NCBI GenBank assembly: GCA_020851635.1
Contig: JADZCJ010000083.1
Span: forward strand, 62,001-126,000
Length of the DNA stretch: 64,000 nucleotides
Reading direction: 5' to 3'
Source of the DNA: Anaerolineae bacterium
GTDB taxonomy: Bacteria; Chloroflexota; Anaerolineae; UBA4142; SHND01
Made by a program: the position numbers and the translations under genes. Below the pieces are notes generated by a model, which saw nothing but the letters and a program-made list of their open reading frames with translations, was not told the origin of the DNA and made no database searches. Positions 19,120-23,529 of this stretch are shown in pieces; position 1 is the stretch's first letter; each line of letters opens with the position of its first letter.

Positions 19120-22100
19120 TCACCTGTCGGTATGGATGGTCTTGGTAAGCGTAAGCACAACAATGCTCGCCGCGCCTCCGCGCTGTAATACGCGTGCCGC
19201 TTCCTGCAAGGTCGCGCCGGAATCGTACAGATCATCCACCAGCAAAATGTGCTTGCCGCGCACATCGCCTTGTAATGCGAACGCCCCGCGCACGTTCGCT
19301 TGTTTTTGCGCGAGCGCACTCATTTCCTTTTGTTGTTTCGTCGCGCGTGTTTTGACCAATACTCCAAACGACGCGGGAATCTTTAACTCTTTTGCCAACG
19401 CGCGCGCCAAATTTCCAACGGGGTCAAACTCGCGCGGCGCAGAAGGCGGCACCGGAATCACCCCGTAAAAACTTGGCAACTCGGGATGTTGACGCACGAG
19501 ATCCGCCCAACGTGCAGCAAGCTCGCGCGCCAGATTCTGTTCGCCGCGATATTTATAGCGAAAGACCAGGTCGCCAATGACGCCGCGATTTTGGGTCTCT
19601 CCATCAAAACGCGAATGGAAATCCAGCGCCCAACCTGCGCGCCATGGACCCGTCAACAGTCGCGCGTGGGGTTTGGCGAGAAAATCGTCCACTGAAACGG
19701 AGTCAGGCGGAACAGAAACCGTTGGGGCGGTAGAACCGGGCTTGAGTGACTGCTCAATCACCTCCAACACCTGCACCCCATATTTTTCCACTTTGTTTGG
19801 TCCGATCCCTTTGATGTCGAGCAGCGCCTGCCGCGTGGTCGGCTTGTATGTCGCCAGCTCATGCAGCACCGCGTCCAAAAAAACCATATACGGCGCGACT
19901 TGTTCGCGCCGCGCTTGTTCTGTCCGCCACGCTCGCAATTTTTGAAATAACGCCGCGTCTTCGGGCGGACGTTCGGCGATGGGCTTTGCCCCAGGCGTTA
20001 TCGTCAGACTAGGTTGTCCCCGTTCGCGCAGCCACGCATTCGCCACACATCGAATCACCGCATAATCCAAATCAGCGGGCAAGCGCGCCTTGATGGGGGC
20101 GAGATATTGCGCGGAACCAACTTGCTCAATCGCCTCGCGAATTTGATTTTGCAATTCTTGCGGCACGACGCGATTGATGTCCACTTGGCCTTGCGAAATC
20201 AGTTGCGCAAGGTGCGAATAAATGGTGCCAATCGTCAAGCCGCGCAGCGCGGCGATTTGTTCGGGCGTCAGTCCTTGCGCCAAGAGTTGTCCGCTCAAGG
20301 CAATGGTGCCGCCCGCCTGGCGTTCGGCGTATGCGCGCGCGAGTTGACTTGGCTGCGGAGGGCGAATGTTTGTTTGGATTCTCGCGCGCGTTTTCAAGGC
20401 GTGTTCGCCGCGCGGAGTGAGTTGGAGCGTTGGATATTCGCCGCCGACCTGTTTCAAGTAACTGTCATCAATCAACTGTTGAATCAAATTTTCCAGATCG
20501 TTTCTGCGTAACGCCATCAATTTTCCGTAATGCGGCGATTTCACAAAATACTGCACATCTTTGGCTTTTGACCCTTTTAAAATATCCGCGAGTTTGCCCT
20601 TGCCGATTTTGCGTTGAAAGGTTTGCGCGGCTTCCAATACAGTCAGCGGAATTTGCTCCGCTTCCGTCGTCGCCGCGCGCATGGTTTCTTGTTCGTCGCC
20701 CATTTCCGCGCGCGCAACATCGTTATCGCAGCACAACGGCGCGCCGGCATCGCCGCTGTCGCCAAAATAGTCAAGAATGGTGCGGCGGCGGCACGCGTTC
20801 GTTTCCGCATAGGAAACAATTTTTCCCAACAAGTGGCGTTTATGATTTTTGCGCGTCTCGACTTGGGCTGCAATCTCGCGCAGAATTTTTTCATCCAACG
20901 GTTCGACCTGCACGCGCATCACGCCAAATTCATCATACGGTTCGCGTCGAATCAGACCGCCCGCTTCCAATTGCTCCAACGCGACTTTGACCGTCGTTTC
21001 GCGCAAACCCAAAATTTGCTCGACGTTCACCAAACTAATCTGCCGATATTTTGCCAGATATTGATGCACGGCGCGCAAATTGTTTTCTGTGGGTGAATCA
21101 TTTGCGATAAACGATTCGTGCAGCGCAGTATCTTTGGGCGAATAGATCAACGCCGCATGTGCGGGCAACCCATCCCGCCCGGCTCGTCCCGCCTCTTGAT
21201 AATACGCTTCAAGCGTGCCGGGCATCGTGTAATGCAATACAAAACGCACGTCGGGTCGGTCAATCCCCATCCCAAACGCATTCGTCGCGACCACCAGCGA
21301 CAAATCTCCCGCGAGAAATTTGTCCTGCGTTGCCGCCCGCAGCTCATTGTCCAGACCCGCGTGGTAATGTGCCGCGGGCAGCTTGCACACCTCTCGCACA
21401 AACTCGGCAACCTCTTCCGCATCACGCCGGGTGCCCGCATAAATAATCCCGGCGCCTCTTTGCTCTGCCAGAAATTCACGCGTCTGCCGCAGTTTTGCTC
21501 TTGCATCTGCGGCATTCAAGACTTGCAAATACAGATTGGGGCGATTAAAACCAGTAACCAACCGCGCCGCATGTTCCATCTCCAGCAGCCGCACGATATC
21601 ATCCTGCACGCGCGTCGTCGCGGTCGCCGTCAGCGCGAGCGTCACCGGCGGCTCAAAATTGCGGCGCGCCTCTGCCAGGCGCAGATAGTCGGGACGAAAA
21701 TCATGCCCCCACTGCGAAAGACAGTGCGCCTCGTCAATCGCGAGCAGACTCAGCTCGACCCGCTTGAGCGCGCCGCGAAACGCGCCACTGCGCAGACGTT
21801 CGGGCGCGACCAGAACGATTCTATATTCCCCTCGCGCCATCTGCGCGAGCCGCCGGTCTTGTTCGGCGACGGTCAACGTAGAATTGATAAACGCGGCAGC
21901 AATCCCGCGGCGCGTGAGCGAGTCCGTCTGGTCTTTCATCAGCGCGACGAGCGGCGAGATCACCAACGCGGTGCCCGGCTGGACGAGCGCCGCCATCTGG
22001 TAGATCAACGACTTGCCCGACCCCGTCGGCATCACGACAAGTGTATCGCGTTTGGCAAGAATGTGATGCAGCGCCTCCAGCTGCCCCGGTCGAAATGCAG

Positions 22101-22167
22101 AGTAACCAAAGTATTTCTCGAGCGCGGCGTAGAGTTTGAAATCATCCATCAAGGGTGGTGCGGACAT
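19120..22167 (-). CDS. recQ: RecQ helicase fused to a ComF-like phosphoribosyltransferase domain
   Basis: About 1015 residues. Residues 1-345 form the SF2 RecQ helicase (Walker A MPTGSGKS 46-53, DEAH 145-148). The zinc-binding subdomain follows, but its motif is degenerate: CRRRTILDYFGD, then PLCCDND where the usual CxxCxxC would be, so the last ligand is lost. A winged-helix region leads to an HTH_40-like segment (LTIGTIYSHLAQLISQGQVD) and an HRDC domain (GIGPNKVEKYGVQVLEVIE). The last 190 or so residues match ComF-type phosphoribosyltransferases, with the PRPP loop LLVDDLYDSGATL near 975. 3'-5' DNA unwinding is expected; the role of the PRTase part is unknown. ATG 22167 is preferred over an upstream extension of low-complexity translated intergenic DNA. 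Confidence 0.88.
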   Translation of the reverse strand: MSAPPLMDDFKLYAALEKYFGYSAFRPGQLEALHHILAKRDTLVVMPTGSGKSLIYQMAALVQPGTALVISPLVALMKDQTDSLTRRGIAAAFINSTLTVAEQDRRLAQMARGEYRIVLVAPERLRSGAFRGALKRVELSLLAIDEAHCLSQWGHDFRPDYLRLAEARRNFEPPVTLALTATATTRVQDDIVRLLEMEHAARLVTGFNRPNLYLQVLNAADARAKLRQTREFLAEQRGAGIIYAGTRRDAEEVAEFVREVCKLPAAHYHAGLDNELRAATQDKFLAGDLSLVVATNAFGMGIDRPDVRFVLHYTMPGTLEAYYQEAGRAGRDGLPAHAALIYSPKDTALHESFIANDSPTENNLRAVHQYLAKYRQISLVNVEQILGLRETTVKVALEQLEAGGLIRREPYDEFGVMRVQVEPLDEKILREIAAQVETRKNHKRHLLGKIVSYAETNACRRRTILDYFGDSGDAGAPLCCDNDVARAEMGDEQETMRAATTEAEQIPLTVLEAAQTFQRKIGKGKLADILKGSKAKDVQYFVKSPHYGKLMALRRNDLENLIQQLIDDSYLKQVGGEYPTLQLTPRGEHALKTRARIQTNIRPPQPSQLARAYAERQAGGTIALSGQLLAQGLTPEQIAALRGLTIGTIYSHLAQLISQGQVDINRVVPQELQNQIREAIEQVGSAQYLAPIKARLPADLDYAVIRCVANAWLRERGQPSLTITPGAKPIAERPPEDAALFQKLRAWRTEQARREQVAPYMVFLDAVLHELATYKPTTRQALLDIKGIGPNKVEKYGVQVLEVIEQSLKPGSTAPTVSVPPDSVSVDDFLAKPHARLLTGPWRAGWALDFHSRFDGETQNRGVIGDLVFRYKYRGEQNLARELAARWADLVRQHPELPSFYGVIPVPPSAPREFDPVGNLARALAKELKIPASFGVLVKTRATKQQKEMSALAQKQANVRGAFALQGDVRGKHILLVDDLYDSGATLQEAARVLQRGGAASIVVLTLTKTIHTDR

Positions 22168-22515
22168 GCGCGATATTGTCGCCCAAAGCGCGCAGATTTT
22201 CAAGCGGTCTCGCAAAAAAACAGTCACAGCGCGCGCAAACATTTCGATATTGTGACAAGCGCCCGGACACGTGGCAGCGCGCGCAAACTTGCAAAATGAT
22301 GACAAGAATTGCGTACCGCAGTTCAACTTGTACGATTTGCGTATAGACAAATTTTGCCGCGCGCGCAAATAACGCGCAAAAATGGGCATATTTTTCAGGT
22401 TGGTCCGTTACTATTTCTATACGCAACAATAGTAGACGGTCTGCGCGCGCATCCATATTTGAATTGTGCTTGCCGCGCGCGCGGCATCGTATAGTAATCT
22501 CGCACGCAAATTCTA

Positions 22516-22544
22516 TTGAAATCCGCGCGCGCCGATGTTATACT
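22516..22544 (+). promoter_or_regulatory. Sigma-70-type promoter of the LysM gene
   Basis: TTGAAA (22516-22521), 17-bp spacer, TATACT (22539-22544). A transcript starting near 22551 would have a leader of about 115 nt containing the hairpin at 22592-22620 (TTCCAC + AACCC pairing with GGGTTGTGGAA). Confidence 0.7.
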
Positions 22545-22591
22545 CTTTTTACCTGCAAAATCTAGCAGAGTTCACGAACGCATTGTGACGG

Positions 22592-22620
22592 TTCCACGCA
22601 AACCCACTCGGGTTGTGGAA
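22592..22620 (+). other. Leader hairpin of the LysM gene
   Basis: TTCCAC (22592-22597) and AACCC (22601-22605) pair with GGGTT (22610-22614) and GTGGAA (22615-22620), leaving a 3-nt bulge and a 4-nt loop. It lies 46 nt before the start codon, so it does not cover the ribosome-binding site. It may stabilise the mRNA. Confidence 0.5.
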
Positions 22621-22666
22621 GACAACACAATCCTGTGAAACTGTAACAATCCAGAAGGAGGCGCCA

Positions 22667-23149
22667 ATGAAGATTTTCACGTCGCGCTATGCGCAGATCG
22701 GTCTCGCCCTTATTATCGCAGTTCTCCTGCTTATTGGTGTAAGCACCTCTGCCAATGCGGCGGGTCCGACCTATCACACCGTACAACCGGGGCAAACCCT
22801 GTTCAGCATCGCCCAGTGGTATGGTACGTCCGTTTGGGCAATCTCGTGTGCCAATGGTCTGTTCAACCCGAACTATGTGTATGCTGGTCAGGTCCTTGTA
22901 ATTCCGCAAGGTGGTTGGGGCGGTGGGTGTCAACCCGCTCACAAACCTATGCCGCAGCCGCATCCCATGCCACAGCCACACCCTCAACCCCAACCGAGCT
23001 GCTACTATACGGTTCGCTGGGGCGATCATCTGTTCCGCATCGCACTTCGCTACGGTGTCCCGTGGACGGTCATTGCGCAGGCGAATGGCTTGCATAACGG
23101 CAATTACATCTATGCCGGTCAGGTCCTGCGTGTGCCGTGCGTTTGGTAA
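22667..23149 (+). CDS. Secreted protein with two LysM domains
   Basis: 160-residue cell-envelope protein. A signal peptide covers residues about 1-31 (positive start, hydrophobic core, NAA end). Two LysM modules that bind glycan chains such as peptidoglycan follow: YHTVQPGQTLFSIAQWYGTS at about 36-79, and YYTVRWGDHLFRIALRYGVP at about 114-157. A histidine/proline/glutamine-rich linker with MPQPHPMPQPHPQPQP joins them. Each module has a Cys pair position, possibly disulfide-bonded outside the cell. There is no catalytic domain, so it probably acts as a wall-binding or adaptor protein. AGAAGGAGG 5 nt before the ATG and a strong promoter suggest high expression. Confidence 0.88.
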   Translation: MKIFTSRYAQIGLALIIAVLLLIGVSTSANAAGPTYHTVQPGQTLFSIAQWYGTSVWAISCANGLFNPNYVYAGQVLVIPQGGWGGGCQPAHKPMPQPHPMPQPHPQPQPSCYYTVRWGDHLFRIALRYGVPWTVIAQANGLHNGNYIYAGQVLRVPCVW

Positions 23150-23164
23150 CGTCTGCTCGAATCC

Positions 23165-23406
23165 AGTATAACCTCGTCAACAATACCGACGGGGCAACTG
23201 CGTCGTCAAGCACTGTAGGTCCATGGTTGCGACTGTGTGCGCAACATCCTCAGTGAGGACATCAAGTGGACCTGCAACTTGCAAATGTAGCGCAGCCGTT
23301 CCCAACCACGAGGTTAATCGAGTCGGTCCATGGAACGACTCGATTGAATTGAAATTACGCGCAAAGCAAAAGAGGCGGGTGTCTCACCCGCCTCTTTCCT
23401 TTTTTC
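23165..23406 (+). ncRNA. Candidate structured RNA (or structured 3' UTR) downstream of LysM
   Basis: About 240 nt without a plausible gene fold into a consistent set of helices. CCTCGTC/GACGGGG (23172-23178, 23188-23194) makes one hairpin. A branched element follows with outer helices CAAG/CTTG (23207-23210, 23278-23281) and AGGTCCA/TGGACCT (23217-23223, 23267-23273). These enclose hairpins GTTGCG/CGCAAC (23226-23231, 23240-23245) and TCCTC/GAGGA (23247-23251, 23255-23259). A 10-bp hairpin AATCGAGTCG/CGACTCGATT (23316-23345) and an intrinsic terminator end it. I see no good promoter inside, so it may be the 3' end of the lysM mRNA or a processed sRNA. It does not match 6S, tmRNA, SRP or RNase P RNA as I know them. 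Confidence 0.45.
23369..23406 (+). terminator. Rho-independent terminator
   Basis: AAAGAGGCGGGT (23369-23380) pairs with ACCCGCCTCTTT (23386-23397), loop GTCTC, followed by CCTTTTTTCC. It ends the lysM transcript and its structured downstream region. Confidence 0.9.
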
Positions 23407-23415
23407 CGCGATGAA

Positions 23416-23529
23416 CTATAGCCTGTTTTCAAGGGTTGGTGAAATTTAAGTTATATTTCTCAGGTTTGCCTTACACTGGCAACGCGAAAATAACTTAAAA
23501 ACTGCGTAACCCTTGAATACAGGCTATAG
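23416..23529. repeat. 114-bp palindromic MITE-like element
   Basis: The two ends are near-perfect inverted repeats: CTATAGCCTGTTTTCAAGGG at 23416 and its complement ending at 23529 (one mismatch in the outer 22 bp). Pairing continues inward with TTTAAGTTAT/ATAACTTAAA and finally TTGCC/GGCAA around a 7-nt centre. The whole unit is one interrupted palindrome with no coding capacity, as in miniature inverted-repeat or REP-like elements. An obvious target-site duplication is not visible at the edges. Confidence 0.65.

Follow-up and report, generated by a model that had tools for sequence, protein, structure and literature searches.

A conserved structured RNA behind a LysM gene in one Anaerolineae genus, a probable 3'-UTR domain

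In six genomes of one Anaerolineae genus, an RNA is located between the stop codon and the terminator of a conserved LysM gene, on the same strand in all six orthologues, and its compensatory base changes exceed those of the controls, which argues for a conserved structured RNA. We think that it may well be a genus-specific structured domain in the 3' UTR of the LysM mRNA that acts mainly in cis, a function predicted from comparative sequence analysis. The window, that is, the whole stretch of DNA analysed (64,000 nt), is part of contig C83 of the 5.8-Mb draft genome G000 (estimated completeness 97.7%). The genus sample consists of six genomes (G000-G005), G002 and G004 being the two relatives given by the contig scan, and the named relatives are Anaerolineae MAGs. 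The features of the locus are as follows.

22516-22544, plus strand: predicted LysM promoter, -35 TTGAAA (22516-22521), 17-bp spacer, -10 TATACT (22539-22544) (top-scoring promoter-like pair; alignment)
22667-23149, plus strand: secreted LysM protein of 160 aa with two LysM domains, whose mRNA hosts the RNA (Pfam PF01476, two stretches)
23172-23194, plus strand: P0 hairpin CCUCGUC/GACGGGG (fold; six-orthologue comparison)
23196-23297, plus strand: core RNA, model R1, three-way junction P1-P5 (covariance-model match; double-sided changes)
23198-23203, plus strand: 5' strand of P1, CUGCGU, partner GCGCAG at 23290-23295 (alignment count)
23207-23210, plus strand: 5' strand of P2, CAAG, partner CUUG at 23278-23281 (alignment count)
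23214-23224, plus strand: 5' strand of P3, partner at 23266-23276, 11 bp (alignment count)
23226-23245, plus strand: P4 hairpin GUUGCG/CGCAAC (alignment count; blind scan)
23247-23259, plus strand: P5 hairpin UCCUC-AGU-GAGGA (alignment count; model-fitted alignment)
23316-23345, plus strand: 10-bp hairpin AATCGAGTCG/CGACTCGATT (folds; genome-specific, unaligned in the other five)
23369-23405, plus strand: intrinsic terminator, 13-bp stem and T-rich tail (fold)

In the region 23150-23405, behind the LysM gene, the P0 hairpin is followed by a branched element, then by another hairpin and a strong intrinsic terminator, and within this region positions 23172-23297 comprise P0 followed by the ~100-nt three-way-junction RNA (P1-P5). 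The preliminary description, made from the window alone, had proposed a structured RNA at this place, and each helix that it named was recovered at its position, namely CCTCGTC/GACGGGG, CAAG/CTTG and AGGTCCA/TGGACCT (11 bp in full) enclosing two hairpins, as well as the 10-bp hairpin and the terminator. The outer helix P1 (CUGCGU/GCGCAG), which closes the branched element, is additional to these. Across the species, P0, P1-P5 and the terminator are kept, while the 10-bp hairpin is not. The layout behind the stop codon is the same in all six genomes: CCAGT, P0, the invariant CTGCGTCG, the junction and the terminator. At the P0 site, every orthologue has a hairpin between CCAGT and CTGCGTCG, the sequence of which differs from genome to genome, and a strong terminator-like hairpin is found at the equivalent place in the other five genomes. 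In addition, GGTCCATGG occurs twice, in P3 (23218-23226) and in the loop region of the 10-bp hairpin (23325-23333), and this loop could compete for the 3' strand of P3, in the window's genome only.

The core alignment (A1, ~100 nt) was made from the six genomes with MAFFT, using sequence only and blind to structure. On this alignment, 91.5% of the cells in the structure were paired, and 17 of the 32 pairs had double-sided compensatory changes (30 such cells). In the shuffle control the corresponding values were 8.7 ± 1.8 pairs and 11.2 cells, with none of 500 shuffles matching 17/32, and when the partners were moved by 1-3 columns there were 4-7 pairs with double changes. Moreover, RNAalifold predicted the same helices unaided, and a blind helix scan found P4 with 10 extra pair types, against a maximum of 7 in 200 column-shuffled alignments. 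The covariation check of homologues that had been suggested beforehand thus turned out in favour of a structured RNA. P3 is the clearest helix in this comparison, with double-sided changes in 8 of its 11 pairs (GGUCCA/UGGACC in the window's genome, CGUUUCA/UGAAACG in G001 and CCCUUUA/UAAAGGG in G004). Such changes are present in five of six pairs in P4, which is 97% paired, and in three of five pairs in P5 (4/5 on the model-fitted alignment), and P2 (CAAG/CUUG) is 100% paired in all six genomes with one A-U to G-C double change. P1 appears to be the least certain helix, conserved in sequence and not covarying: its 5' strand is invariant, 86% of the cells are paired, there are no double-sided changes in the six sequences, and its pairing in G004 requires a 5-nt insertion. 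The core has a mean column identity of about 70%, against a pairwise identity of 0.51 for the fourfold sites in the ORF.

The folding energy is also better than that of shuffled sequence, a comparison that the preliminary description had called for. The stretch 23165-23406 folds with -95.8 kcal/mol, whereas 200 dinucleotide-shuffled sequences averaged -68 ± 4.55 and none of them reached its energy (z = -6.1), a value that is due partly to the inclusion of the terminator; the z score is -4.0 without it (23165-23350, 0/200 shuffles) and -2.2 for P0 and the core only (23165-23310, 5/200 shuffles). In the single-sequence folds, all six orthologues have the P3/P4/P5 junction in common. The strand is undecided by energy alone because the reverse strand of 23165-23350 folds equally well (z = -4.1), but G-U cells outnumber A-C cells in the aligned core (19 versus 6) and therefore the plus strand is favoured. 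That the stretch is an ordinary spacer with chance or transposon-derived hairpins is extremely improbable. An insertion-sequence-like inverted repeat (23416-23529) does adjoin it in the window's genome, but this repeat comes after the terminator and is present at this site only there, and each of the six genomes has a single copy of the RNA, with compensatory changes, so that the covariation refutes such an origin. The repeat itself, directly behind the terminator, measures ~114 bp (TATAGCCTGTTTTCAAGGGTT ... AACCCTTGAATACAGGCTATA), and its ends agree with AGCCTGTATTCAAGGGTTG, the terminal repeat of an insertion sequence that occurs at about nine other places in the genome, mostly contig ends; it looks like a MITE-type non-autonomous derivative. 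A small protein gene was rejected, as none of the frames stays open with a similar sequence in all six genomes.

An orthologue of the LysM gene is present in all six genomes, the other five being 75-84% identical. Its promoter-like pair has the form TTGAAA-17-TATACT/TAAAAT, lies at -148 to -154 from the ATG within a strongly conserved upstream region, and is the best-scoring one in each genome. Since the position of the LysM promoter is so strict in all six genomes, the RNA most probably constitutes the 3' UTR of the LysM mRNA. No conserved promoter-like site was found between the middle of the ORF and the RNA in the six genomes, and the interval between ORF and RNA has no terminator. From this layout of promoter and terminator we infer co-transcription with LysM, and the simplest reading would be one ~850-nt transcript from the LysM promoter with a 3' UTR of ~250 nt. 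An independent RNA, which had been offered as one option, is disfavoured by the invariant LysM promoter upstream and by the lack of a conserved promoter between the ORF and the RNA; we regard it as improbable that an RNA gene with its own promoter stands behind LysM by chance. A promoter-like TTGGTA-18-TATAAC does overlap the LysM stop codon in the window's genome, but it is absent in the other five, where the top scores are elsewhere, and there is no clear increase in fourfold-site identity towards the end of the ORF. Several other elements were observed upstream. The block 22480-22545, including and upstream of the LysM promoter (ATCGNATAGTCATNTCGCACGCAA..TCTATTGAAATC), is strongly conserved, which suggests a site for an activator or regulator. 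A short CTGC..GCAG hairpin (22553-22568), close to where the LysM mRNA is predicted to start, occurs in all six genomes and may be a 5' stabiliser. Directly before the Shine-Dalgarno sequence, the LysM 5' UTR has a conserved inverted repeat, TTGT..GTTYCAC ... GTGAAAC..ACAA (22582-22650), which is kept in sequence, covaries hardly at all and could act either as a hairpin in the RNA or as an operator. Further upstream, on the minus strand, an ORF of 1089 aa (19120-22389) would encode, judged by its translation only, a RecQ-like helicase with a ComF-like phosphoribosyltransferase domain.

The covariance model R1 gave a single match in the window's genome (105.5 bits, E 2.9e-21) and exactly one strong copy in each of the six genus genomes (E 1e-15 to 3e-21), directly behind the orthologous LysM gene. 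No credible copy was detected in 292 other genomes of the class, and with laxer filters none was found in 14 sister-family genomes, where two matches of ~20 bits were chance-sized, as were weak matches of 17-21 bits in G001, G016 and G014; a plasmid collection gave no DNA match. In six sister-family genomes, LysM is followed by a convergent DinB-like gene 45-72 nt away, with a bare terminator only. In the genus, LysM and DinB are separated by 232-259 nt in four genomes and by 385 nt in the window's genome, owing to the extra inverted repeat behind the terminator; in G001 the stretch examined contained no DinB gene. The difference between 232-259 and 45-72 nt indicates that the RNA is a discrete, lineage-specific module, which on this comparison was apparently gained in the genus or lost in the sister family.

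The RNA had been described as possibly new, and this is borne out by Rfam 15, in which the window matches no family at the gathering cut-off. The six orthologous RNAs have no match either, the search returning only two unrelated tRNAs, and under relaxed thresholds the matches are far below the cut-off, mostly over the terminator, and none is credible. A tRNA/tmRNA search found none, and literature searches on noncoding RNAs of Anaerolineae and of LysM 3' UTRs yielded nothing bearing on the element. It represents a candidate family of RNAs that, to judge by Rfam and the literature searched, is new but belongs to a known general kind. The closest precedent is the L17 downstream element, a structured RNA that is conserved in what is presumably the 3' UTR of a single gene and frequently has no gene after it; G-U pairs argue its orientation, and cis feedback was proposed (Weinberg et al. 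2010, PMC2864571). Both are structured RNAs in putative 3' UTRs and oriented by G-U pairs, but the host gene there is that for ribosomal protein L17 instead of LysM, and the two have no match in sequence or structure according to Rfam, which holds many curated motifs of such kind. Chloroflexi-1 RNA (RF01698), a candidate structured RNA of the same phylum (PMC2864571), matches the LysM RNA neither at the gathering score nor among the relaxed hits.

A stability element and an sRNA, both of which the preliminary description allowed, are each compatible with the sequence. Enterobacterial 3'-UTR-derived sRNAs such as CpxQ, MicL and SroC are Hfq-dependent, mostly require RNase E and conserve an unpaired seed. 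Like them, the LysM RNA is structured, ends in a terminator and would form part of the 3' UTR of a message that encodes an envelope or secreted protein, but it keeps a compact junction in place of the seed. Neither Hfq (PF17209) nor RNase E/G (PF10150) was found in the draft genome, while the control searches were positive (for Hfq in E. coli and B. subtilis); this absence is not absolute, since completeness of the draft is estimated at 97.7%. The searches did find PNPase and an RNase J-type protein. Because Hfq and RNase E/G are undetected, a cis-acting 3'-UTR domain is favoured over an sRNA dependent on them. The main rival, possible if on the unlikely side, is that cleavage of the LysM mRNA upstream of P0 releases a terminated fragment of ~230 nt, which regulates other mRNAs in trans. 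The strong terminator, the invariant 8-nt CTGCGTCG and other conserved unpaired stretches, possible seeds or binding sites, would fit it; besides the missing proteins, however, the hairpin loops are variable, the predicted fold places the best-conserved strand in the P1 helix, and the conserved CCAGT before P0 is the sole candidate signal for a cut site. Antisense action over a long range, in which the conserved CUUCAUGG of P3 would pair with the LysM start codon region (CCAUGAAG) and repress translation, is very unlikely. Some orthologues have complementarity of 8-9 nt, for example CUUCAUGGG with CCCAUGAAG in G002, but it is lost in the window's genome (GGUCCAUGG) and in G005 (CUUCGCGG), which instead keep the P3 pairing by compensatory change, and cognate duplexes of the 5' UTR with the 3' region (-73.9 kcal/mol) are no better than mismatched ones (-73.4 kcal/mol).

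For the domain acting in cis, we assume that the LysM promoter would give a transcript including P0, the P1-P5 junction and the intrinsic terminator as its 3' UTR, in which the conserved junction nucleotides CUGCGUCGCC, GCNCUG and CAACUUGCA would make up a putative protein site. A candidate partner, either the exonuclease machinery or a feedback regulator, would then set the lifetime or output of the LysM mRNA, and processing may leave a 3' fragment that survives as a stable RNA. Conservation of the junction bases hints that a partner recognises them and that the structure does not serve as bulk only. Against this reading, a pure stability role would not require conserved junction bases, and the 3' end is already guarded by the terminator. 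It is rather doubtful that the three-way junction serves as a dedicated receptor in the 3' UTR, binding a protein or small molecule and giving feedback on expression of the LysM envelope protein; control through a structured 3'-UTR domain has been described as highly unusual in bacteria (PMC2864571), and if this reading were true, such control would operate in a phylum with little-studied riboregulation. In any case, a well-supported RNA motif with no Rfam match is added to the Chloroflexota, a phylum whose RNA biology is little studied, and the two sister families, which share the LysM/DinB gene pair but differ in the presence of this domain, offer a natural comparison for the role of a structured bacterial 3' UTR.
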